This document shows, piece by piece, positions 12,595 through 25,777 of a stretch of 39,011 nucleotides of DNA; position 1 is the stretch's first letter; every line of letters begins with the position of its first letter. The stretch lies in NCBI GenBank assembly GCA_016934295.1, contig JAFGTD010000174.1, positions 1 to 39,011 on the forward strand, written 5' to 3'. The notes beneath the pieces are model-generated. The model was given only the letters and a program-made list of their open reading frames with translations, was not told the DNA's origin and made no database searches. Position numbers and translations under genes: made by a program. This stretch comes from Acidobacteriota bacterium (GTDB lineage Bacteria; Acidobacteriota; UBA6911).

Positions 12595-13287
12595 TTAAAG
12601 ATCCATTCCGGCGCCATTTATCCGGAGCCATTCCTTCCGTTCCATGTAATCGGGCATAACCTTGTCCACCTGATTCCAGAATGCGGTCGTGTGATTCGGG
12701 TAAAGGAGATGGGCGAGTTCATGCACAATGATGTAATCCAGAACGGTCGGAGGGGCCATCATGCATTTCCAATGGAAATTGATATTCCCGCCTACGGAGC
12801 AGGAAGCCCACCGGTTCTTGAGGTCTATTATCCGCACGGACTTCGGTTCAACACCCATGCGTTTCCTATAATGCTCAACCCGTTCTCCGATTCGTTTCTT
12901 CCCCTTCTGTCGGTAGAACTCCTTGAAGGCAGTATCCGGATCCGGAGCCGTGCCGCCGTTCGTTCGGAGACAAAAATAGCCATCCTTGAGCATCAAAGGA
13001 TTATCCTGCGAGGCGACCAGCTTGAGCCGATATGTTCGCCCCAGATACAGGAATCCTTCGCCATTAACGTATTCACGGCGAACTCTTGCGGCGTTGAGAT
13101 CCTTCCATTCAGCCAGATTCCGGTAAATCCACTTCCTCTTGCTTTCGATTAGCTCTTGGATCTGCCTTTTTGACAGGTTCTCCGGGACAAGGACTGACAC
13201 GGCGCCATCCCGCTCGATGTAAATACTGGCGGTTTTTCGCCTACTGGATTTGAGCGAATATTGGATGTCCTTGTATTGCTCCATCAT
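12595..13287 (-). CDS. YgjP-like (DUF45) M48-clan metallopeptidase
   Basis: A 230-residue protein of normal length for YgjP/DUF45 zinc metallopeptidases. Conserved parts are NRWASCSVGGNINFHWKCMM and the HELAHLLYPNH box, which is HExxH plus a third ligand a few residues on. Such genes very often follow hsdR in type I restriction operons, but no accepted role is known. Proteolytic control of HsdR, as ClpXP does elsewhere, is an idea only. The ATG overlaps the hsdR stop (ATGA), so it is translationally coupled and part of the hsd operon. Confidence 0.9.
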   Translation of the reverse strand: MMEQYKDIQYSLKSSRRKTASIYIERDGAVSVLVPENLSKRQIQELIESKRKWIYRNLAEWKDLNAARVRREYVNGEGFLYLGRTYRLKLVASQDNPLMLKDGYFCLRTNGGTAPDPDTAFKEFYRQKGKKRIGERVEHYRKRMGVEPKSVRIIDLKNRWASCSVGGNINFHWKCMMAPPTVLDYIIVHELAHLLYPNHTTAFWNQVDKVMPDYMERKEWLRINGAGMDL

Positions 13288-16200
13288 TTCACAATGTCCT
13301 GATGACGATTCTTCGCCAGTGCCGTGATTTCAGTGACGATTTTTTCACTATTCTCTACAAGATCATCAATCCCTGTTAACAGAATAAGATCAGACAGCCT
13401 TCCTCTTAACTTGCTGACTTCGGGGCCATTGCTCCAGAAACCAATAATGTTGATGGTACGGCGGAATTCTTCGAACACCTTAATCACAAGTTCTTTCAGT
13501 TTCTCCCTGTATTCTTCAGGCACACCGCCGCTACCAAAGCCTATCTGAGCGATCAGATCGTAAAATGGAGCCGCGTGTGGGCTGATTCCCTCAATATCAT
13601 CCTTTCGCCCTTCTTCGGCTTCCTGACGCAACGGGAAAAGGTTCCGGTATAACTCATCCCAGTCATCCTTGTATTTCTGGATGAGTGCCTCCAGCTTTTC
13701 GCTGAGGTTCTTGTAGAATACCGGATCCTGCTCGAAGTGAACCTTGCAGTGTTTCCGGATGGCGTGTTCCATTTCACTTGCCTTCGCCTTTGCAGACGTG
13801 TTCTTTTCAACCTCGGTAACAAATTTAGGAGAAAGTAGCTCAACGGGCGGGATTTTCGGATTGATCCCAAGGCTGACCAGATGCTCATCGATGAGCTTTT
13901 TCACCTTTTCCCCTGCTCCGGAAATGTTCAGGGACTCATCCTTGTATCGCTCTTTCACCTTGGACAGGATGTAGCCGAATCGTTTGACCGGAATCCGGTA
14001 GGGATTTGCCGCCGCATTGGGTAGCACGATGTCCATACTCTGCATGAATTTCTTGAAATACACTTCAAAATTTGCCCGGAGCCGGATGTCCTCCATCAAC
14101 TCGACAGCATTTTCCAGAACCATGTAGGCTTTCTTCCGGTCAGGGATTTTTTGCTCAACAAAATCCCGGATATCCTTAACTCCATTGTTATAAAACAGAT
14201 TGCACAGGCGGTTGTATCGATCCTCCAGAACCGGAAGTTCAACCGAAATGTCCTTGAGCGAATCCTCGATAATCTTCCGGTCATCGGTAGCGTAGATGGA
14301 CAGTGCCTCTTTAAGGTGGTTTGCCAAGCCGATGTAATCGACAATGTAGCCGCGACTCTTTCCCTTTGCGACCCGATTTACACGGGCAATGGTCTGGAGA
14401 AGGTTGTGATCCCGAACCTTCTTGTCGATATACATCACCTGTTCCACTGGCGCATCGAAGCCGGTAAGAAGCATGTCGCATATAACAAGAAAGGCAATGC
14501 CGGTATTTACTTTTTCCGGATCGTCATAGTTGAATGTCCGTTTGAAATTCTCGACTGCATCAACCGACTTGGCATGTTTCCGGGCTTGAGTAATCAGGGC
14601 GGGTTCATTCGTACCCTCTGAGGACACGACAACAACCGATTGCAGGAAACCGATCCTCTTGCACAGATCATCATCCCTGTAGATGCCACTGTCTTCCTCC
14701 GGTTTTGCGCCCGGATCTCCTTCCCATTCAGGCTTGGACTGCTCCAGTTTCAGTCGTTCCGTCAGTGCCTTATCAATGGCCTTTTTGTATTTGACCGCCG
14801 CCATCTTGGATGAACACACTACTTGGGCCTTGAAACCGTTGGGGAGGATGTCACCGACATAATGATTGACCATATCCGTGGCAATGGCTTCAATCCGTTT
14901 GTCGGCTTCGAGAATATCGCCGGCAGTGCCCCATTTCTTCTTCAGTTCCAGAATTTCCTGTTCAGATCGTTCCCTTACGAGATCATCGAACGGCTTCTGC
15001 TCCCGTTCCGCCATCCGTCTGAGTTTGGCGATATTTTCATCCTTCCTCATCTGCGAATAGACGTGTCCCTCGGCCAGTTCCGCAACCTTGGAGTCCAGCT
15101 CATATTTCCGGTCAATGGCTGCATCCGACGTTTTGCCTTCATAAAGGATCTGAACAGTCGCTCCGTCATCAACCGCATCCTGCAATTTGTATTTGTCGAT
15201 GTAATGCCCGAATCGCTCGACCGTTTTCTTCTTGTCTTTGACAAGAATCAGGGGAGTTCCGGTAAATGCCAGACGCGTGGCATTGGGGAAAGCCTCGAAC
15301 AGATTGTCTCCCAGATCACCGGACTGTGTTCTGTGCGCCTCATCGATCATGAGCAGGATCCGTTCTGACCGGTTCACAATACCGAAAGTCTGAAACTTCG
15401 GAATTTCCAGAACACTTTCAAGATAGTCGGGCAAGTTCTGATCCCGCACCTCCTGAAACTTATGAACCATGACCATATTGAGGTTTGAGGAATCATTTGA
15501 GAGCTTCTCTCTCAAGTCGGCTGTACTGGTTACGTATGTGACCTTTTCACCGGCTAATTCCGCTGTTTCGCCAAGCTGTTCCTCCAGATCGGTGCGGTCG
15601 TTTATCAGGCATATCTTGTAGTCCTTGAGATCGTCGCACATGCGGATCTTGCGAATGACGAAAACCATAGCGAGGGATTTCCCGCTCCCCTGGGTGTGCC
15701 AGATCACTCCGGATCGTTCTGCGGGTGTTTTCCCCATGCGAAGCCGGTCGATAACCTTGTTCATGGCGCGGTATTGCTGGTATCGGCTGACGATTTTCGC
15801 CCGGGTTTTACCTACCTCCATGAACACCGTACAGTTCCGGACGATATCGAGGAATGTCTCCTTCGGGAACATCCCCTGTATAAGAAGCTCTTGTTGCCGC
15901 ACCTTGCCGAGGGGTGGTGTATAGCTCCGATACTTTTCCGGGTAAATGTCCCGCCATGGATAGAAGAACTCTTCCTCAGTGGATGTAATGGTTCCGAACT
16001 CAGCCTTCTCGCCGTTGGTACGAATCAGTACCTGGTTTGTGAAGAACAGACGGGGTTCACCCTCTCTCAATCCTGATATTTTTGTTTCCTCCCGCTGATC
16101 CGCGTAGCGCATCAACTGGCGGAACGCCTCGTACATGGGATTGGCTTCGACATGGCTGGCATCCTTGCACTCGATAACTGCCATGGGGAGACCATTTACG

Positions 16201-16661
16201 AACAGGACAATATCCGGAATGATACAGTCCTTTACTCCGCCCGGAGTATCGATGCGGAACTGGTTGATAGCCAGAAAGTGGTTGCGCTCAGGGTGATGGA
16301 AGTCGATCAGATGAACATCGGGATACTCTTCACCGGTTAATTCATTCACGTCGACCTGAGTACGGTACAGAAGTTTCAGTACACTCTCATTGGCTTCCAG
16401 AAGACTGGCACCCGGGTGATGAAGGATCTGGTCGTGGAGTTCGTCGAGTTGTTTGTCGGTAAGCCATTGCTGGCTGTCTTCGGTGAGGTTAATGGATCGG
16501 ACGCTCCGGTTGAAAATGTCGCGGAGAATGATAGTTCGAAAGTCGATACGGTAACTTCTGGCGGGATCCGTAGGAAAAGCCGGGCTCTGATCGGCAACCT
16601 CCCATCCAAGGGCGGCTAACTGGTCAAGGAACGGCTTTTCGACATACTGGTATTCAGACAT
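13284..16661 (-). CDS. hsdR: Type I restriction enzyme, R subunit
   Basis: Full-length HsdR of 1125 residues, the endonuclease-translocase subunit of a type I restriction complex. The N-terminal PD-(D/E)xK nuclease is seen at PD (149-150) and ECK (164-166). The SF2 motor follows with Walker A WHTQGSGKS (321-329), DEAH (440-443), FTGTP (motif III) and a C-terminal helicase half including ITQARK and QTIARVNR (motif VI). A long helical C terminus contacts the methylase core. It overlaps hsdS upstream by 8 bases and the YgjP gene downstream by 4. No frameshift or missing motif is seen, so the nuclease should be active. Confidence 0.97.
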   Translation of the reverse strand: MSEYQYVEKPFLDQLAALGWEVADQSPAFPTDPARSYRIDFRTIILRDIFNRSVRSINLTEDSQQWLTDKQLDELHDQILHHPGASLLEANESVLKLLYRTQVDVNELTGEEYPDVHLIDFHHPERNHFLAINQFRIDTPGGVKDCIIPDIVLFVNGLPMAVIECKDASHVEANPMYEAFRQLMRYADQREETKISGLREGEPRLFFTNQVLIRTNGEKAEFGTITSTEEEFFYPWRDIYPEKYRSYTPPLGKVRQQELLIQGMFPKETFLDIVRNCTVFMEVGKTRAKIVSRYQQYRAMNKVIDRLRMGKTPAERSGVIWHTQGSGKSLAMVFVIRKIRMCDDLKDYKICLINDRTDLEEQLGETAELAGEKVTYVTSTADLREKLSNDSSNLNMVMVHKFQEVRDQNLPDYLESVLEIPKFQTFGIVNRSERILLMIDEAHRTQSGDLGDNLFEAFPNATRLAFTGTPLILVKDKKKTVERFGHYIDKYKLQDAVDDGATVQILYEGKTSDAAIDRKYELDSKVAELAEGHVYSQMRKDENIAKLRRMAEREQKPFDDLVRERSEQEILELKKKWGTAGDILEADKRIEAIATDMVNHYVGDILPNGFKAQVVCSSKMAAVKYKKAIDKALTERLKLEQSKPEWEGDPGAKPEEDSGIYRDDDLCKRIGFLQSVVVVSSEGTNEPALITQARKHAKSVDAVENFKRTFNYDDPEKVNTGIAFLVICDMLLTGFDAPVEQVMYIDKKVRDHNLLQTIARVNRVAKGKSRGYIVDYIGLANHLKEALSIYATDDRKIIEDSLKDISVELPVLEDRYNRLCNLFYNNGVKDIRDFVEQKIPDRKKAYMVLENAVELMEDIRLRANFEVYFKKFMQSMDIVLPNAAANPYRIPVKRFGYILSKVKERYKDESLNISGAGEKVKKLIDEHLVSLGINPKIPPVELLSPKFVTEVEKNTSAKAKASEMEHAIRKHCKVHFEQDPVFYKNLSEKLEALIQKYKDDWDELYRNLFPLRQEAEEGRKDDIEGISPHAAPFYDLIAQIGFGSGGVPEEYREKLKELVIKVFEEFRRTINIIGFWSNGPEVSKLRGRLSDLILLTGIDDLVENSEKIVTEITALAKNRHQDIVK

Positions 16662-17970
16662 CTTCCGTCTCCGTATCGGTTTTGACTCTAACTTTGCCGG
16701 TGAGAAGGTCTTGCATCAAGCCTCGCTTGATCGCCTGATATTTGGCAATCAAGGATTCGGTTTTTTCAATCTGGTTGTCGACCGTCGTAAGTATAAGAGC
16801 TATTGTGCATTGTTCGGTGATGGGTGGTAGAGAAATAACAAACTCACGCAAGTCAGCTTGGAATAGATGAGGGACACCCAGCCCAGCCTTCTTCAAGGTA
16901 ATCAGCTTTTGAAAATCTTCGCCATTTACATAATGGAAAAGAAATTCAGGATAGAGAGTATTTCTTTTGGTTCGGACAACCGCGATGGAGCCATTCACTG
17001 TAGCGGGGCGGGGCATTTTACGCACAAAGCTGCAAATACCCAAGGTCGATCCGTCCTTGACAATTAAGACGTCATGTTCACGAAGTTGTATCTCCGGTGA
17101 TTCCTCATATCGCCACTTCGAAATGAAATCAACGTTATGAAAGTCGATCTGATTCCCTTTTAGATTTGGAGTAGAGAGGAAAATATACCCATCATCTACA
17201 TATTCTTCCGCTTTTAATCCCTTCCAGCCCAGTCGTGCTTTAACTGTGGTGTGATCTCCCAAGCGGACGGAATGCCACCCCTTCGGGATCCAGCCAAGTT
17301 CCGACTCCTTATACAATTCCGGCGCCTCCTCGAACGTCGGCCTTAATCGCCCGTGTTCGTCCACGCCACGGGCAAACAAATCTTGCATCATCCCCTGCTT
17401 GATCGCCTGATATTTGGCAATCAGGGCTTCAGTATTTTCAATCAGGTTGTCGACCGTGGTGAGGATACGGGCGATTTTGCGTTGTTCGAACAGTGGTGGC
17501 AAGAGGAGTTTATATCGAAAGAAAAAATCTGTAGATACACGTTGTTGACCAGCGGAACCTGTAAAATTAGTTACTGCTTTTTTTCTCAGTTCATCAGATA
17601 GTGAGAGATGATAGATAAATTGAGGGTCACCAAAATTATTTGCTCTCAATACATGAAATTCAGTACTGCCAAATCCTACCCCGCTTTCTAAGTTAGTTGC
17701 CCAAGCTCCTTTTCCGTTTTCCATGCAGGGCGTAATTTTTGCAAACAGAACGTCCTTTTCTTGAAATCTTGTAAATCCATTCCGCACTTCCTTTAATTGA
17801 CGAGATTGCCGCTGAATTATGTGTCCACTTTCACTCACATCTGCCATAGATAGAAAACTAACAACATTTTCATCACATAGCCCTGCGATGCTAACAGGTG
17901 GATTGACATCAAGGATATCTGTTAAATGCCCATATTGCCATCTGCATGGAATTTCATCCCAATCACTCAT
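16654..17970 (-). CDS. hsdS: Type I restriction enzyme, specificity subunit
   Basis: A 438-residue HsdS with the classical two-half design: target-recognition domain 1 (about 10-165), a conserved helical spacer ([20 protein letters not shown], then [14 protein letters not shown]), domain 2 (about 225-380) and a second near-copy of the spacer ([20 protein letters not shown], then [13 protein letters not shown]). It sets the bipartite DNA target for both methylation and cleavage. The target cannot be predicted from sequence alone. It overlaps hsdM and hsdR by 8 bases each. The two spacers are also repeated at DNA level, which allows recombinational domain exchange. No invertase or extra hsdS fragment is present. 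Confidence 0.95.
16711..16798. repeat. hsdS internal direct repeat, spacer 2
   Basis: About 88 bases matching 17382-17469 with a minority of mismatches (shared runs such as GATCGCCTGATATTTGGCAA). It encodes the second conserved helical spacer of HsdS. Confidence 0.75.
17382..17469. repeat. hsdS internal direct repeat, spacer 1
   Basis: Partner of 16711-16798, encoding the first helical spacer between the two recognition domains. The pair lies 671 bases apart in direct orientation. Confidence 0.75.
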
Positions 17971-20578
17971 ATCCCAACTCCACCAGGAACAGATTCAGCT
18001 TTTCAGCTTCCTTATCCCGCTCTTCCAGAATCTGCTTCGTTGTCACAGCATATTTGTCCCACAGATTCTCTATAGCCGCGATAAACGCCCTCTGATACTG
18101 CCGTAGATACCCCTCATACTGTTCTAATAAAAGCATCTGAAGTCGTTCCAGTATCAATCCTTTCGCTTCATCCTCACTGATCTTTCCACGGGCAGCGGCT
18201 ACAAGATCATCCTTCTTCTTTTCGCTGGCACGGATATTCGCCTTGAGCATCTTCAGTTCGTTTTCCAGTTCCGTTTGCCGGGAAAGTTCCTCGTCGATCT
18301 GCTCCACCCTCCGGGATTTATCAAAGCCTTCAGCCTCTATATCATTTGCTTCAGCACGGGCTTCATTGATCTCAGACCGGATTGACCCAGCTTTTTCCAT
18401 CCGCTTAATATTTTTTCTTATCTCCCGGACTTCCTTTTTTATCTGGCGGATTTCACCGTTCAGGGCCTTCTTTTCATCCTTCAGAGCCTTCACTCTGGAC
18501 TTCGGTAGAACTCCATCGTCGGACTCTTCAGGTTCAGCTTCTTCGTCCTCCTCCGATGCATTAGCGGCGGCGAACAATCCCTCCAATTCGGCAATCCGAG
18601 CCTGATCCTTTTCGATCTGCTCCAGAACCTCCGGGAATTGGGACTGTAATATATCTTCTTCAGGTATTAATTCCGGGCCCCATCCACTTGCAGCCACCGA
18701 CTTGAAATCTGCCGCCAGTTGTTTCATATATGCGGCAAATGCCCCACGGATCTGATGGATATCGAGGACTTTAAGTCCCGCCAATGCTTCCCCGACACTG
18801 GATATAAACCGTCGACGAAGCTCAAAGACACTGTTCTTTTCTGGCAGTTCTTCGATATGCCGAACATTCTCACTCCACCACCGATCGAGGGTTTTGAGGA
18901 ATTCCTTGTGTTTCTTCTGTACGCCCGGAGCCGATTCAATCAAGGGTTTGATACTGTCTTTACCATCAATGGCTTTGGCAAAGTCACTGTAACTGTCATC
19001 CCGGGGCCGGAACAGAAGCTCCTTCGTACCTTTATAATTTCGAAAATATCCGCTCAGAGCATCGATTTCAGCCAGCGGCACTCCGCCATTCAGGTGTGCC
19101 CGAACGTCATGCGGCTCGGGTGGAGGGCTGTTATCGACATAGCGCCGAATATTGAGATTAAAATCCTCCTGCTCCAACTCTGTGTGGGGAACGAGTCTGG
19201 AATACTTGGGAACCTCCAGATGTTCGTGATAGACATGCGTGATCTTTTCAATATCCTCCGGTCGCAGTGAGTTCTGGTTCTTTCCCTCCTTGTATTCCCG
19301 GTCTCCATTGATAAAAAGCACACTCTTACGTTTCTGCGCTCCATCCTTGTTGATAACCAGCACACAGGCCGGAATACCGGTACCGTAAAACAGTCCGGGC
19401 GGCAAACCTACGACGGCTTCCAGTAATCCATCCTTGATGAATTTCTTGCGGCACTCCTTTTCCTCGCCCCCCCGGAACAGCACCCCATGAGGCATCACCA
19501 CGGCCATACGGCCGTCGCTTTTCAGTGACGCCACCATGTGCTGTACGAACATCAGGTCAGCCTTCTTACCCGATTCCGGTGTAAAGGTGTGGAACCGTTC
19601 CGGAAACTTCATGCCGTTTCTGGAATAGTTCTGAGAGAATGGAGGATTTGCGATTACACGGTCGAAGCGACGGATTTCACCGTTACTATCGAGATGTTGC
19701 GGGTCTTTGATCGTGTCTCCCTGTCGGATGTCGGCGCTGCGGATCCCATGCAGGATCATGTTCATTTTGCAGATAGACCACGTTCCGCCGTTGCTTTCCT
19801 GTCCGGCCAGCAATAAATTCCGTGAGTTTCCTCCTGTCTCCTGAACGTATTCTTTCGACTGGATGAGCATACCTCCGGATCCGGCACAGGGGTCATAGCA
19901 GGACATACCTTCTCTGGGTCTTATGAGCCGCACCATCATACGGACAACTTCAGAGGGTGTATAAAATTCGCCGCCTTTTTTACCGGCACTGTCGGCAAAA
20001 TATTTAATCAGGTATTCGTAGGCCGCGCCCAGAAGGTCTGGGAACTCAAAATCTTCATTCGAGAGAGGGATTGCATCGAAATGCTGGATAAACTCGACCA
20101 GAGTGCTGTCATCCATCGTCCTTTGGCCGACTTTGCGGTTAAAATTTATGCCTTTCAGCACATCTTGAAGGGTGTCCGGATTGGCGTCTTCAATCGCCTC
20201 CAGAGCCTTATTCAGCCCGGATCCCACGGACTCCTTGAGATGGCGGATTTTGCTCCAGTGGGATTTGGGAGGAACGAAGAAGTCGTATTTGTCCGGATTG
20301 CTGAGTTGCCGGTCAATCAGGTCGGATTTCATCCCCTTCTTTTCATAATCAGCCCGGAGAACAGCCTGGTCGCTGTCGAACTGATCGCTTGTCCGTTTGA
20401 GAAAGAGCATTCCGAAGATGTATTCCTTGTATTCGGACGCATCCATATTGCCGCGCAGGATGTCACATGCCTTAAACAGGAGGTTTTCCAGCCTTGCCAG
20501 TGTCAGCTTTTCCGGCTTTTTAAATCCCCGACCGTTCGCATGATTGCCCGTCGCTTCTTTCCCTCTGTTTCGGCCCAT
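17963..20578 (-). CDS. hsdM: Type I restriction enzyme, methylase subunit with long coiled-coil tail
   Basis: An N6-adenine methylase of the HsdM family. The N-terminal helical domain is followed by GGEFYTP (202-208), the SAM-binding DPCAGSGGM (229-237) and catalytic NPPF (311-314). At 871 residues it is several hundred longer than the common ~500-residue HsdM. The extra part from about residue 500 is charged and helical, with a long coiled coil ([40 protein letters not shown]) and an acidic linker ([13 protein letters not shown]). Long-tailed HsdM variants exist. The tail probably takes part in holding two HsdM on one HsdS, but that is inference. It is the first gene of the hsd operon and overlaps hsdS by 8 bases. 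Confidence 0.95.
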
Positions 20579-20837: not shown

Positions 20838-22256
20838 CTAATTAAATAATGAGTTTAGAAAGCGATAGATTTCTACCATCGCAAAGGTATCTCGTTCACA
20901 ATACAACAAGAGGTCGTTAGCAATCTTTTTTGCTTCTTCCTCCTCAGCATTGACCATTCTCTGCCATGCCTCCATGGCCACAGATCCCTCCTGAACTTGA
21001 AGATCCTCGTAATTAAGACAAGGACAAATAACGGGTAAGACTTTCTTTATTGAAGTTGAGCCATCAAACCGTGCATCCACGTACGCTGATTTGAACAATT
21101 CTTCAAGGTCAACCATTCGTTTATTTATATCCATTAAGAAATCATTTTTGTCAGGGAACAGTTTCGTCATTTCATTGTTCTGCGTTTTCTCAAAGGAGGC
21201 GTGCCAAGAGACAATGCTTCCCTCAATTCCAATATCTTCTTGCATCTGCTCTACTAAATGCGATGGTAAACTTCTTTGCCGCTCTAAAAACTCCCGGTGA
21301 GTTAAGCTGCCATCTTTTTGCATGATATGTAGCGAATACTGTACTGGAAAATGCTTGTGGGGACTGGTTCCGTCAATAAGTGGAACGGCTGAGGCGAAAG
21401 TCTCAAAATCAAAAAAATACAAGGGAAACACTAATTGGCTAAGGAAACGTTGGATTTCGCCCATATTGATTTGTGGCCTTGCATTTTTTGCTGCATTAAT
21501 AACAATCCGTTGATTGTCTGATAGAGGGTAGTCATCAGGTATTTCGCCAAGCGCAAATATCTGTTTTGCTATTAAATCATCACGCTTCGTAGCATTAAGC
21601 CTTGGAATGCTATAGATCGATGGTATCGGCACGTTCGGATTGAATATAGAAAATGTATCGCAATGATTTGTGCGTGATTTGTGAAGACATGTGCAACTAT
21701 TTTTATCAATATCGGTTTGCTTTAGCAGTTCAAGTGCATCGTTGATTTCTTTTTCTGTCTCACTGGTGATATGTTCTATATCTTTTGTCACATCTACGAA
21801 AACGAGTAATTGTTCTGGCTCTATATCCCCTTTCCGTACGTATTCACCGTTCAAGTGCACAAGAAATACCTTGTCAAGGTTCAGTCCGGCACGCACTGCG
21901 CATATTTTCTGAAAACAAGCGTCTTTAAGATGGTTATGGGTATTGTCTGTCTTCACGCGGGTGGATGATTTGACTTCATAAAGGATTGTTTTGCCATCGC
22001 TTGTTTGCTCAAGTATATCAGCCCTTGCATATAGACCATCATCGGTCTCAAAAACACGCTGAAATTCAACAATCCTCTCTCCTGCATTTTTGAAATATTT
22101 CTGCACATAACTTTCAACCTCATACCCTTCACGGATCAATTTCCTTAAAAACGCAGAAAATTCTCCTTCTGGATAATTCTCTGGATCATGCTTCAATAGC
22201 CAAAGGGACTTCGGGCAGTTCCGATATTGAAGGAAATCGGTTTTCGTAATCTTCAT
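20838..22256 (-). CDS. DUF2779 protein: Cas4-like nuclease plus DEDD-exonuclease-like domain
   Basis: A 472-residue protein. The N-terminal part starts TKTDFLQYRNCPKSLWLLKH and carries D80 (ARAD) and E94-V-K96 (YEVKSS), the PD-(D/E)xK nuclease pattern of the Cas4/RecB class. Cysteines at 14, 188, 190 and 199 could bind an iron-sulfur cluster. The C-terminal part (from about 275) is DUF2779 with FFDFETF (D283, E285), WHASFEKTQ and YCERDTFAMVEIY (D456), which reads as an RNase-H-fold DEDD 3'-5' exonuclease. The family is known by domain number only. Location between a SIR2-HerA module and a type I restriction operon favours a defence role. It is separated by ~240 bases from KTSC and ~260 from hsdM. 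Confidence 0.8.
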   Translation of the reverse strand: MKITKTDFLQYRNCPKSLWLLKHDPENYPEGEFSAFLRKLIREGYEVESYVQKYFKNAGERIVEFQRVFETDDGLYARADILEQTSDGKTILYEVKSSTRVKTDNTHNHLKDACFQKICAVRAGLNLDKVFLVHLNGEYVRKGDIEPEQLLVFVDVTKDIEHITSETEKEINDALELLKQTDIDKNSCTCLHKSRTNHCDTFSIFNPNVPIPSIYSIPRLNATKRDDLIAKQIFALGEIPDDYPLSDNQRIVINAAKNARPQINMGEIQRFLSQLVFPLYFFDFETFASAVPLIDGTSPHKHFPVQYSLHIMQKDGSLTHREFLERQRSLPSHLVEQMQEDIGIEGSIVSWHASFEKTQNNEMTKLFPDKNDFLMDINKRMVDLEELFKSAYVDARFDGSTSIKKVLPVICPCLNYEDLQVQEGSVAMEAWQRMVNAEEEEAKKIANDLLLYCERDTFAMVEIYRFLNSLFN

Positions 22257-22495: not shown

Positions 22496-22705
22496 CTATG
22501 TTCGGACATAGCGATAACTATTCTTGATATTTTGATTAAGGTAGCGCCCGACAGATTCGGCGCCGATTAAATTATGATATTCCATTTCCGGAACATCGAA
22601 GTATTGATAAACCGAGCCGTTTGTGAATTCGACTTCGAGGGTCATTGTACTCGCATCGTAGCCAATGGAAGTCACATTTGTGGATTGCACCGGCGTTCTG
22701 TTCAT
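22496..22705 (-). CDS. KTSC domain protein
   Basis: A 69-residue single-domain protein matching the KTSC family over its whole length: NVTSIGYDASTMTLEVEFTN, then GSVYQYFDVPEMEYHNLIGA, then SVGRYLNQNIKNSYRY. The domain was named from its occurrence at the C terminus of some lysyl-tRNA synthetases and is otherwise of unknown function. The ATG overlaps the HerA stop (TAATG), with AGGAGA 6 nt upstream, so it is made together with SIR2 and HerA. Close coupling suggests a structural or regulatory partner of that complex, as inference. Confidence 0.9.
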   Translation of the reverse strand: MNRTPVQSTNVTSIGYDASTMTLEVEFTNGSVYQYFDVPEMEYHNLIGAESVGRYLNQNIKNSYRYVRT

Positions 22706-24570
22706 TAATTATCTCCTGAATCATTTATGTTTCGGGGATTTTCACTTCGCCATCTTTCAAGTACACGGGCGTAATCCTCCGGTTGTTTAAGACGGTTCCA
22801 ACCGCTATTCTTCTCTGGATCAAATATCTTCGGGTCGTGACTATCTGGAAGGCGATTTCTGCTCGGTTCATCAATAAGGGCACGTAAGGGGAGATGAACC
22901 GCCTCCCCCACAACTATAGCTTCGCCCGTTCTAAGTGTAGGTAGCATATTAAAGAGACCTTCAAGATTGTCACTCACGGTTCCGGTCACATGAGACCGGT
23001 CAATGGCGTTAGCAAGCCGCATGGCAAACATTGTGCCGCATTGAGACAGGATGGTGGGATCAATCTCCGATGGTCTTTGACTGACAATCATTGCACCCAG
23101 CCCATATTTTCTACCTTCCTTAACAATCCGACGAGTAGCGATGGACGCAGCGCCTTCATTCCCAGCATTCAGGTAGGCATGTGCTTCTTCTAAAACGAAC
23201 AATAATGGTCTGGTTCGGCCTCCTTCCGGAATGTAACGCGCCCAAAAAAGCGCATCAAACAAAAGCCTAATCAACGCACCTATAAGATCCATCAATATGG
23301 ATACCGGTACTCCGGAAAGGTCAAGAATAGTAATCGGTTTATCTCCGCCCACCCATGCTCTAATCAATACATCAAGGTCTTGATTGGGCTGTGAGTTAAG
23401 ATTTTGAAAAGTTGGGTTAGGGCACCATGGGCCGGGACGAAACAAGAAATTATACCTTGTATCTCGGAGAAGTGCCTCAGTAGCCATTATTTGTCGCCTA
23501 ATATTTAGTGGTGAACTACTCAAATACACGCGGTTTGGGCCACCGGAGGTAATCGGGCGAAATCGGGGAGGAATCACTCTCATAATATTACCACGCATTG
23601 GCTGTCCATCCTGTCCCATCTCGATTGCTTCTGTGTCATTACTCTGACTTGCCCCTTGTGCAGTATGTGTAGAACAGACATGCCTGTACAATTCGTACCA
23701 TAGACGGTGAATACTAAATGGAATAGGCGAATCCACTGTCATGGTATCAGCACAAACTCCGTTACGTGCCTGTTCCTGAAGAGAGTCAAGTTTCAACTGT
23801 TTGATCTTTTCGATCATTGCTGCTCTGTCTGCATCTCCCAACCCACGGAAAGGCGTTACACGAATAAGCTCATCAAAACTCAAGGCCCAATAGGGAATAA
23901 AAAGTTGCTGTTCGCCTCTTGCCTCATTCGCATTTACTCGGAAGATTGTCGCTCGATCACTTAAAGCCGTCTGATATTCTCCGTGGATATCCAATACAAT
24001 TATTCGAGCTGATGGATACTGCCCAGGATCGGAAAGTGAGGCGAGGAGGCTTGCCACAGTTGTAGACTTTCCTGATCCCGTTGTGCCCACTACGGCGCTA
24101 TGTCTGGCTATTAATCGATCAATATCGATTAGTGCGGGGATGGATTCCGCGCTTGCAAGGTTACCCACACGAATTAAATTCGGTGAATCTGATCTACCAT
24201 AAATGCGTGTCAAATCTTGTTCTGTTACAAGATGTGCTTCATCACCAATGGTTGGATACTGCGAAATACCGCGCTTAAATCCACTCGACCTCTGGCCTTC
24301 CCCGACTAACTGCACTTTCAACCAGCGATGGCCATAGGGATCAATTTTAGCCAATGTCTCGGGAACAGCCCCAGCTCCAACTTGTGACACGATTCCGAAT
24401 AAGTCTGTAAAGCCGATGGAGATACGAACAAAACTACCAATCTGGCCTATTCGATAGCCATGGCCGTCTATAAATGCCAGCCCGGATACTGTTTCCTTGT
24501 CGAGGGCGATACTAATTGTTGCGCCTTGAACGTCTTGAACAGAACCAAGATAGGTAGGACTGTTAGGCAT
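22705..24570 (-). CDS. HerA-like ATPase of a SIR2-HerA defence module
   Basis: A 621-residue FtsK/HerA-superfamily P-loop ATPase. An N-terminal HAS-barrel-like beta region (about 1-110) precedes Walker A VGTTGSGKSTT (about 161-171), a Walker B-like IIVLDIHGEY (about 190-199) and a later LLFVLEEAHAYL box, then SQRPSEIDPTILSQ (sensor region). Relatives form hexameric rings that move on DNA. With SIR2 they build large assemblies known from antiphage Nezha systems. I choose the ATG at 24570 because GGAGG lies 6 nt upstream inside the SIR2 end. The start at 24636 has no such site. It overlaps SIR2 by 8 bases and KTSC by one base. Confidence 0.92.
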   Translation of the reverse strand: MPNSPTYLGSVQDVQGATISIALDKETVSGLAFIDGHGYRIGQIGSFVRISIGFTDLFGIVSQVGAGAVPETLAKIDPYGHRWLKVQLVGEGQRSSGFKRGISQYPTIGDEAHLVTEQDLTRIYGRSDSPNLIRVGNLASAESIPALIDIDRLIARHSAVVGTTGSGKSTTVASLLASLSDPGQYPSARIIVLDIHGEYQTALSDRATIFRVNANEARGEQQLFIPYWALSFDELIRVTPFRGLGDADRAAMIEKIKQLKLDSLQEQARNGVCADTMTVDSPIPFSIHRLWYELYRHVCSTHTAQGASQSNDTEAIEMGQDGQPMRGNIMRVIPPRFRPITSGGPNRVYLSSSPLNIRRQIMATEALLRDTRYNFLFRPGPWCPNPTFQNLNSQPNQDLDVLIRAWVGGDKPITILDLSGVPVSILMDLIGALIRLLFDALFWARYIPEGGRTRPLLFVLEEAHAYLNAGNEGAASIATRRIVKEGRKYGLGAMIVSQRPSEIDPTILSQCGTMFAMRLANAIDRSHVTGTVSDNLEGLFNMLPTLRTGEAIVVGEAVHLPLRALIDEPSRNRLPDSHDPKIFDPEKNSGWNRLKQPEDYARVLERWRSENPRNINDSGDN

Positions 24571-25777
24571 CATAATCCTCCGGCGTCTGTCGAACATTAC
24601 CAACCAATTCATTGATAAATTGCCCAAAAACAGCAAAGTCGCCTAATTTAAATTTTGCAGAATGTTTGCCATTCTGGCCCTCCGGATCGACCGGCTCCCA
24701 CACGATCCATTCGTTGGTGTCTGCAGATACCAACTCCGCATCCTTTTCAGGCCACTTTGATTCTTGGCTACCGATGATCGCTCCATCTATAGCGAGAATA
24801 TTGAGATTGGAGCGTTTGGAGGCCAGAGCGATAGCTTGAGTGTAGGTATTGATTTCATTGAAAAGTAGCGCAAACGCAATGGCAGATTGATTGGATTGTA
24901 GTCCTTGTATAATAATCTCATTGATGTGTTCATCTCTGAAAGAATATCCACATAAAATGAGCGTGGCAGTTGGCTGCTTGAGGAAAGCACGCAGACGGTC
25001 AATCATAGCGAGATAAGGCATACGTCTGCTCTCTTGGTATTTCAGGTGTGAAGGATGAATGACACGCTTAGTCCCGCCTTCATCTTTAGCCGTTCCACGA
25101 AATACTCCCTTGTTCTCTATCTGATACCAATTAACCGAGCCATGAAGTTTCCATAACCGCGCCCATCGGGGAGGAAGCATGTCTTCCTCCATTGCCCGCA
25201 GATCAAAGAAGGGTTTTCGTACACCTGCAAATCCATCAAAGTAAGGAACACGCGAATCCTCGAATGCCTGTTCCATCAACAAATCATAGTTTGTAGTAAA
25301 AACCTCAATCGGGTTTTCACGCCTTACTGCATCTACCCATCCGGCAATTTGATGGTAAGGTGTATTGGAATTGGTGAGTGTTTTGTCAGCAACTTGGTGG
25401 ATGATTTGGCATATTCTATCATCCAATTTATCCAGTTGCTCGGCAGATAGTCCTCGCACTTCGTCTTTACCGGCCACAGATTGAAGAGCACGGATATGAG
25501 TAAGCATATCCTCAACCGTTACATCGGTACGCCCATCTTTCTCGAAGTGCTCCTGCATGATAGAAAGGAGTGGCCCGTATTCCGTGCATTTCGTTAATTC
25601 ATCACAAACTATACTGGTGATACCTGAGATGTCTGGAATGAGTGGCTCCTTGCCTTCAGGCCCAGTTTTTAAGGCCATAGGACAGCCAGCTCCAAGGAAA
25701 AAACCAATAGGTTTCTTATCGGTGGACAGACATTGTTGTAGATAATTAACCTGTTTATTTGGATCTTGGGTGCTCAT
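24563..25777 (-). CDS. SIR2-family NADase of a SIR2-HerA defence module
   Basis: A 404-residue SIR2-like protein. The NAD-binding GAG motif is in FFLGAGCPMA (29-31), the catalytic region has FTTNYDLLME (N163, D165), and the His is in WKLHGSVNW (H212). A later LILCGYSFRDEHIN is typical of bacterial defence SIR2 proteins. These enzymes deplete NAD+ on infection, not deacetylate proteins. With the downstream HerA it matches the SIR2-HerA (Nezha) arrangement. The ATG has GAGGA 6 nt upstream. It is the first island gene read from the right end, facing the orphaned tRNA promoter at 26457-26485. Confidence 0.92.
   Translation of the reverse strand: MSTQDPNKQVNYLQQCLSTDKKPIGFFLGAGCPMALKTGPEGKEPLIPDISGITSIVCDELTKCTEYGPLLSIMQEHFEKDGRTDVTVEDMLTHIRALQSVAGKDEVRGLSAEQLDKLDDRICQIIHQVADKTLTNSNTPYHQIAGWVDAVRRENPIEVFTTNYDLLMEQAFEDSRVPYFDGFAGVRKPFFDLRAMEEDMLPPRWARLWKLHGSVNWYQIENKGVFRGTAKDEGGTKRVIHPSHLKYQESRRMPYLAMIDRLRAFLKQPTATLILCGYSFRDEHINEIIIQGLQSNQSAIAFALLFNEINTYTQAIALASKRSNLNILAIDGAIIGSQESKWPEKDAELVSADTNEWIVWEPVDPEGQNGKHSAKFKLGDFAVFGQFINELVGNVRQTPEDYDA

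Follow-up and report, generated by a model that had tools for sequence, protein, structure and literature searches.

A KTSC-domain gene as a regular companion, and a probable HerA-ring component, of a distinct branch of SIR2-HerA operons

The SIR2-HerA systems are known as anti-phage gene pairs, and the three-gene operon described here raises the question of what a third protein, carrying a KTSC domain, contributes to such a system. The operon lies on a 39,011-nucleotide stretch of DNA from an Acidobacteriota bacterium (contig JAFGTD010000174.1, assembly GCA_016934295.1; the entire stretch is referred to as the window). A sequence-only reading of the window had held the KTSC protein to be no standard component and had proposed that it might be an RNA- or tRNA-related sensor, an inhibitor that keeps the NADase off, or a scaffold. 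Both the SIR2-HerA pair and the presence of KTSC on HerA in a solved fused structure are already known. The window operon probably represents a separate branch of the anti-phage SIR2-HerA systems, one whose KTSC protein belongs to the HerA ring and has a structural or regulatory task there, and KTSC is most likely a real, uncatalogued subunit of the motor. What was observed directly in favour of this comprises the operon itself, the pattern of presence and absence of KTSC among SIR2-HerA loci, natural HerA-KTSC fusions, KTSC domains resolved on fused HerA, and the co-divergence of the two proteins.

The operon consists of three tightly overlapping minus-strand open reading frames (ORFs), encoding a SIR2 NADase-like effector of 404 amino acids (24563-25777), a HerA hexameric ATPase/translocase of 621 amino acids (22705-24570) and, as the third gene, a KTSC-domain protein of 69 amino acids (22496-22705). 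HerA has two neighbouring in-frame ATG codons at 24573 and 24570; with the latter its coding region overlaps that of SIR2 by 8 bases (24563-24570), with the former by 11. The HerA stop and the KTSC start overlap as TAATG (22703-22707). Both downstream genes are preceded by a good ribosome site, GGAGG being located just upstream of the HerA start (ccGGAGGattATGATG) and GGAG 7 nucleotides upstream of the KTSC ATG. The gene order, the 8-base overlap and the KTSC junction had been described correctly in the sequence-only reading. The SIR2 protein matches Pfam SIR2_2 (E=2.4e-19), the PADLOC model PDLC04094 (E=3.5e-138) and the PDB entry 8w9l (E=3.5e-99), and HerA matches Pfam DUF87 (E=7.5e-32), PDLC04105 (E=6.6e-154) and the PDB entry 8wiv (E=7e-216). 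Judged against the residues named in the literature, the catalytic residues of both proteins, namely the TTNYD motif (N163, Y164, D165) and H212 in SIR2 and the Walker A K168 and Walker B E461-E462 in HerA, are invariant in all 48 clade members including the window. The earlier assignment as a defence pair is supported.

The third protein matches PF13619 over the whole domain (E=1.4e-26; 92.4 bits, the cut-off being 25). Its AlphaFold2 model, with a mean predicted local distance difference test score (pLDDT) of 96.4 and the topology E-E-E-E-H-H-E, has template modelling scores of 0.96 to 7x8c and 0.93 to 4rgi, which places it in the solved KTSC fold. It is the single KTSC of the whole genome assembly, and a comparison with the homologous gene of locus L013 (nonsynonymous divergence, dN, 0.15; synonymous divergence, dS, near saturation; ratio about 0.05) shows it to be under strong purifying selection. 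With adjacent SIR2-domain and HerA-type ATPase genes the locus has the gene arrangement of the two-gene SIR2-HerA (Nezha) type. While the PADLOC SIR2 and HerA models match strongly, the proteins score well below the NCBIfam equivalog cut-offs (212.5 of 850 bits for HerA_antiphage and 60.5 of 500 bits for SIR2_antiphage), which suggests a separate branch of SIR2-HerA.

Is KTSC a regular part of this branch? The genome collection was scanned by SIR2 alone, i.e. blind to KTSC, which yielded 14 loci; KTSC lies directly 3′ of HerA in 13 of them, from Thermodesulfobacteriota, Verrucomicrobiota, Nitrospirota, Bacteroidota, Campylobacterota, Bacillota and others, and the sole locus without it, L026, is the most distant of the 14. 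HerA searches covered viral contigs, plasmids and three sampled phyla, namely Pseudomonadota, Bacteroidota and Bacillota (those of G399, G404 and G407), with KTSC scored within reach of each HerA and near-copies removed before counting. Taking as branch loci those in which HerA scores 600 bits or more against the profile and has SIR2 next to it, KTSC is present in 49 of 49 scorable loci, as a separate gene in 48 and fused to HerA in one, and in none of the 36 SIR2-HerA pairs outside the branch with readable downstream sequence. One further branch locus (L186) ends at the contig end before the KTSC region, and in L125, the sole branch locus without KTSC, the HerA C-terminus is cut off. Since the profile was built from KTSC-bearing loci, the 600-bit line is not independent, and the HerA tree is therefore the better test. 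On this tree (163 rows) the presence and absence of KTSC needs three state changes, explained as one gain in the branch, a separate gain in L047/L075 and a loss in L125. Likewise, among 396 sampled genomes of the window's own phylum, all the others that match the window SIR2 over its full length (G250, G352 and G181) have an adjoining KTSC, and those with distant SIR2-HerA only (G388, G264, G224, G178 and G045) have no KTSC anywhere in the genome.

The distance from the HerA stop to the KTSC start is at most 20 nucleotides in 47 of 48 loci, often with an overlap. The proposed co-translation is supported. As the gene order and the close spacing recur in about 50 diverse loci, a neighbour by chance can be ruled out, and so can one confined to this genome, the outcome that the sequence-only reading had named as a refutation. 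A KTSC-less sublineage within the branch can also be ruled out, as the apparent misses are each explained: beside L186 and L125 these are L027 and L116, in which KTSC is present and masked by long stop-to-stop ORFs. The view of KTSC as a non-standard component holds for the databases, where PADLOC-DB and NCBIfam have no model matching the protein; in nature, by contrast, a whole branch is defined by KTSC.

Several loci encountered in the survey depart from this arrangement. In L067:867-1877 (G228) a deletion joins the start of SIR2 to the end of HerA, with KTSC still intact, and on an Agrobacterium pusense plasmid (NZ_CP076849.1, 64105-76178) the HerA match is broken off and KTSC, on the same strand, is separated from it by about 9 kb, the operon probably having been split by an insertion. 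A Klebsiella plasmid (L034:3385-6261) carries a single ORF of 960 amino acids that matches both the SIR2 and HerA profiles, without KTSC, and this ORF is found on KPC and other Klebsiella plasmids. A natural three-gene copy is present on the E. coli plasmid NZ_CP010123.1 (L028:5989-9285), whose native host is thus a laboratory species.

The partner of KTSC within the operon is indicated by natural fusions. In an intact viral-contig locus (L183), SIR2 is followed by HerA and KTSC as a single fused protein, whereas in its closest relatives, L188 and L028, KTSC is separate; the truncated L079 likewise encodes a HerA-KTSC fusion and groups with L014, whose KTSC is separate. The fusion has therefore arisen at least twice. 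The same architecture is found in the protein chain of 8wiv, in which HerA (residues 9-606) and KTSC (630-695) form one polypeptide of 696 amino acids that is also present in six sister entries (8wj3, 8wk0, 8wld, 8woc, 8wod and 8wof). These structures, which we take to be of the Paenibacillus sp. 453MF SIR2-HerA, belong to the same HerA branch as the window (HerA 722 bits, SIR2 336 bits) and have the same KTSC domain, although there it is attached to the HerA C-terminus via a linker, and in the window it is a separate ORF with its own ribosome site. A PDB search with the window KTSC model recovers the free KTSC structures 7x8c and 4rgi and, in addition, HerA chains of 8wld (D, L, M, N), 8wiv (D, L, M, O), 8wof (B) and 8wj3 (N), in which the KTSC domain is resolved and hence ordered on HerA in those states. 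The other listed HerA chains of 8woc, 8wod and 8wof comprise at most 560 residues and fit the HerA core only, so the ordering of KTSC may depend on the state. In a 2024 paper by Liao et al. in Nucleic Acids Research (NAR) on the 8wiv system, HerA is reportedly a split spiral that a unique extension at its C-terminus steadies; most simply, this task would fall to KTSC, as a domain in the fused protein and as a separate subunit in the window.

The divergence of the three proteins points to the same partner. In pairwise-distance comparisons across 48 loci, KTSC distances correlate with those of HerA at a rho of 0.60 versus 0.51 for SIR2; the partial correlation of KTSC with HerA given SIR2 is 0.38 and that of KTSC with SIR2 given HerA only 0.04-0.06, and the outcome is unchanged when HerA is subsampled to equal length. 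Within HerA, the C-terminal third tracks KTSC most closely (partial correlation 0.42, versus 0.31 and 0.22 for the other thirds). Together with the fusions and the KTSC domains resolved on HerA, this makes the scaffold, or a subunit bound to HerA, the best fit of the three roles suggested earlier.

A possible mode of action can be drawn from the closest known systems. In the two-gene SIR2-HerA of V. cholerae, SIR2 mutations or the loss of HerA abolish defence (PMC11559045), and the SIR2 dodecamer is stated in the same source, with reference to structural papers, to sit on a HerA hexamer and to deplete NAD+. The two-gene systems (E. coli 8su9, S. aureus 8yhx and V. cholerae) have the gene pair, its order and the catalytic residues in common with the window, but their surveyed relatives outside the branch lack KTSC. 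In DUF4297-HerA the effector contacts the N-terminal HAS domain of HerA, HerA alone is a split spiral of low activity, and each HerA subunit reaches the next one with a C-terminal hook, whose docking there stabilizes the ring (PMC11291478). This system resembles the favoured model in that an effector is stacked on a HerA ring whose adjacent subunits are steadied by a C-terminal element, and differs from the window in that the effector is a nuclease and the hook is a part of HerA itself, with no sign found of a KTSC domain. By analogy, the C-terminal side of HerA would face away from SIR2. The separate 69-residue KTSC would then bind to this C-terminal face as the fused domain does, and bridge or steady neighbouring subunits in the ring in the manner of the hook; it could thereby control how an idle HerA passes into the active assembly with SIR2, by which NAD+ is depleted when a phage infects.

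Certain observations weigh against such a role. First, KTSC domains are found in a wide range of unrelated settings, which argues for no obvious HerA-specific role of the domain. Next, KTSC is seen in only some of the solved HerA chains, few of them in 8woc, 8wod and 8wof, and its docking on HerA may be partial. In a model of the fused L183 protein a disordered linker (pLDDT 34-51) precedes KTSC, whose placement is unreliable, the root-mean-square deviation from 8wld being 19.7 globally and 3.2 for the HerA core; the model thus carries no information on docking. Finally, the co-divergence may partly reflect the adjacency of the KTSC and HerA genes, although only HerA separates KTSC from SIR2, which tempers the objection.

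Among the alternatives, the one that survives best, though it appears unlikely, is a DNA-contacting or DNA-sensing subunit that binds phage DNA or a DNA intermediate and passes it, or a signal of it, on to the channel of HerA. In Iyer et al. 2022 (PMC9503650) KTSC is classed as DNA-binding, and loci are mentioned, as unpublished, in which HerA and KTSC go with an endoDNase instead of a sirtuin; these loci share the HerA-KTSC coupling with the window, while the three-gene form with a sirtuin is not described there. A possible example is L075:1961-6044 (G038), where a protein of 667 amino acids, without a match in Pfam or PADLOC, a distant HerA (588 amino acids) and KTSC follow one another, an independent HerA-KTSC link without SIR2 that may belong to the endoDNase type. 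The last 12 residues of the operon KTSCs, with a net charge of +2, would also suit such a role, but the body of the protein is acidic (net -4.6, median isoelectric point 5.1), the paper by the same group that is cited for the DNA binding (PMC7824862) terms KTSC an RNA-binding domain, and no structure of KTSC in complex with a nucleic acid was found.

An inhibitor or antitoxin that holds the SIR2 NADase off until infection is improbable. A small protein that shares the operon with a toxic effector and is almost never lost where SIR2 and HerA are intact would fit this proposal; however, KTSC is fused to HerA and not to SIR2, its divergence follows HerA and is nearly uncorrelated with SIR2 once HerA is accounted for, it is encoded last while antitoxins are often encoded first, and the SIR2-HerA of other branches manage without it. 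KTSC is thus probably not an antitoxin.

Finally, a KTSC of phage origin might compete for the KTSC site on HerA, so that the system would sense a phage product by homology and be triggered or blocked by it, which is very improbable. KTSC proteins are encoded in 154 of 50,697 phage records, and the closest, at 59% identity to the window KTSC, is nearer than the KTSCs of many homologous operons (35-55%). It is encoded by the Caulobacter phage Seuss (gp83; L237:3001-3213), just downstream of rIIA and rIIB. Against this reading, the surroundings of phage KTSC genes vary, with lysozyme and portal genes near some and small genes of unknown function around others, and the KTSC gene tree (69 columns) is mostly unresolved, with the operon KTSCs forming no sharply separate family. 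The lineage of L029, L030 and L031 has a rather different KTSC in the same operon slot, a hint that the slot counts more than the exact sequence. A wider variant, in which KTSC is an exchangeable sensor module on the HerA motor and a competing phage-encoded KTSC triggers or blocks the system, carries the same very small likelihood; if it were true, the same module would serve further defence-like loci with KTSC as the last gene, those with E2/ThiF genes in haloarchaea, an OLD-like ATPase or other HerA types. For the proposed RNA or tRNA sensor no direct support was found; the operon KTSCs are acidic, even though the domain does occur on tRNA synthetases, and on the favoured reading KTSC is not a tRNA sensor.

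The favoured reading of KTSC as a HerA-ring subunit would turn a two-gene system into a three-part one across a whole branch, in several bacterial phyla and on archaeal plasmids, and would give a domain of unknown function a concrete partner in HerA. No description of the three-gene form as a branch of its own was found in the literature, of which many subscription papers lay beyond the search. Since defence catalogues score the pair only, a SIR2-HerA of this branch might be cloned without its third gene of 210 bases, which could yield false negatives or odd toxicity.

KTSC genes were also noted in other settings. Haloarchaeal plasmids, among them one of Halorubrum (L035:3181-6213), carry a run of E2/UBC, ThiF/JAB and KTSC genes in which KTSC overlaps the end of ThiF, and several more plasmids carry KTSC under a ThiF annotation; the run is possibly another defence system with KTSC as its last gene. 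An OLD-like TOPRIM ATPase gene overlaps a KTSC gene in L066:5969-7479 (G073), KTSC is found beside Mu F-like phage head genes, and a tyrosyl-tRNA synthetase in L071:5793-7244 bears a C-terminal KTSC domain. An origin of the operon KTSC as a remnant of such a synthetase was considered and rejected, as no synthetase gene lies beside the operon.

In the window, the operon sits in a defence neighbourhood with a type I restriction-modification system at 13284-20578. Between the two lies a DUF2779/RNase H-like gene (20838-22256) whose N-terminal part weakly matches a Cas4-like model (PADLOC, E=3.6e-06). Of nine other genomes from the genus only one has a comparable stretch, with a DNA identity of 64%, which is what a mobile system would be expected to show. 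The genes 3′ of KTSC are unrelated among the loci, which rules out a conserved fourth gene. In an archaeal SIR2-HerA-KTSC operon on a Natrinema plasmid (L031:7472-8564), and there only among the loci compared, an ADP-ribosylglycohydrolase annotated as two ORFs directly follows KTSC, and in the Paracoccus locus L027 an ADP-ribosylglycohydrolase is located a few genes upstream.
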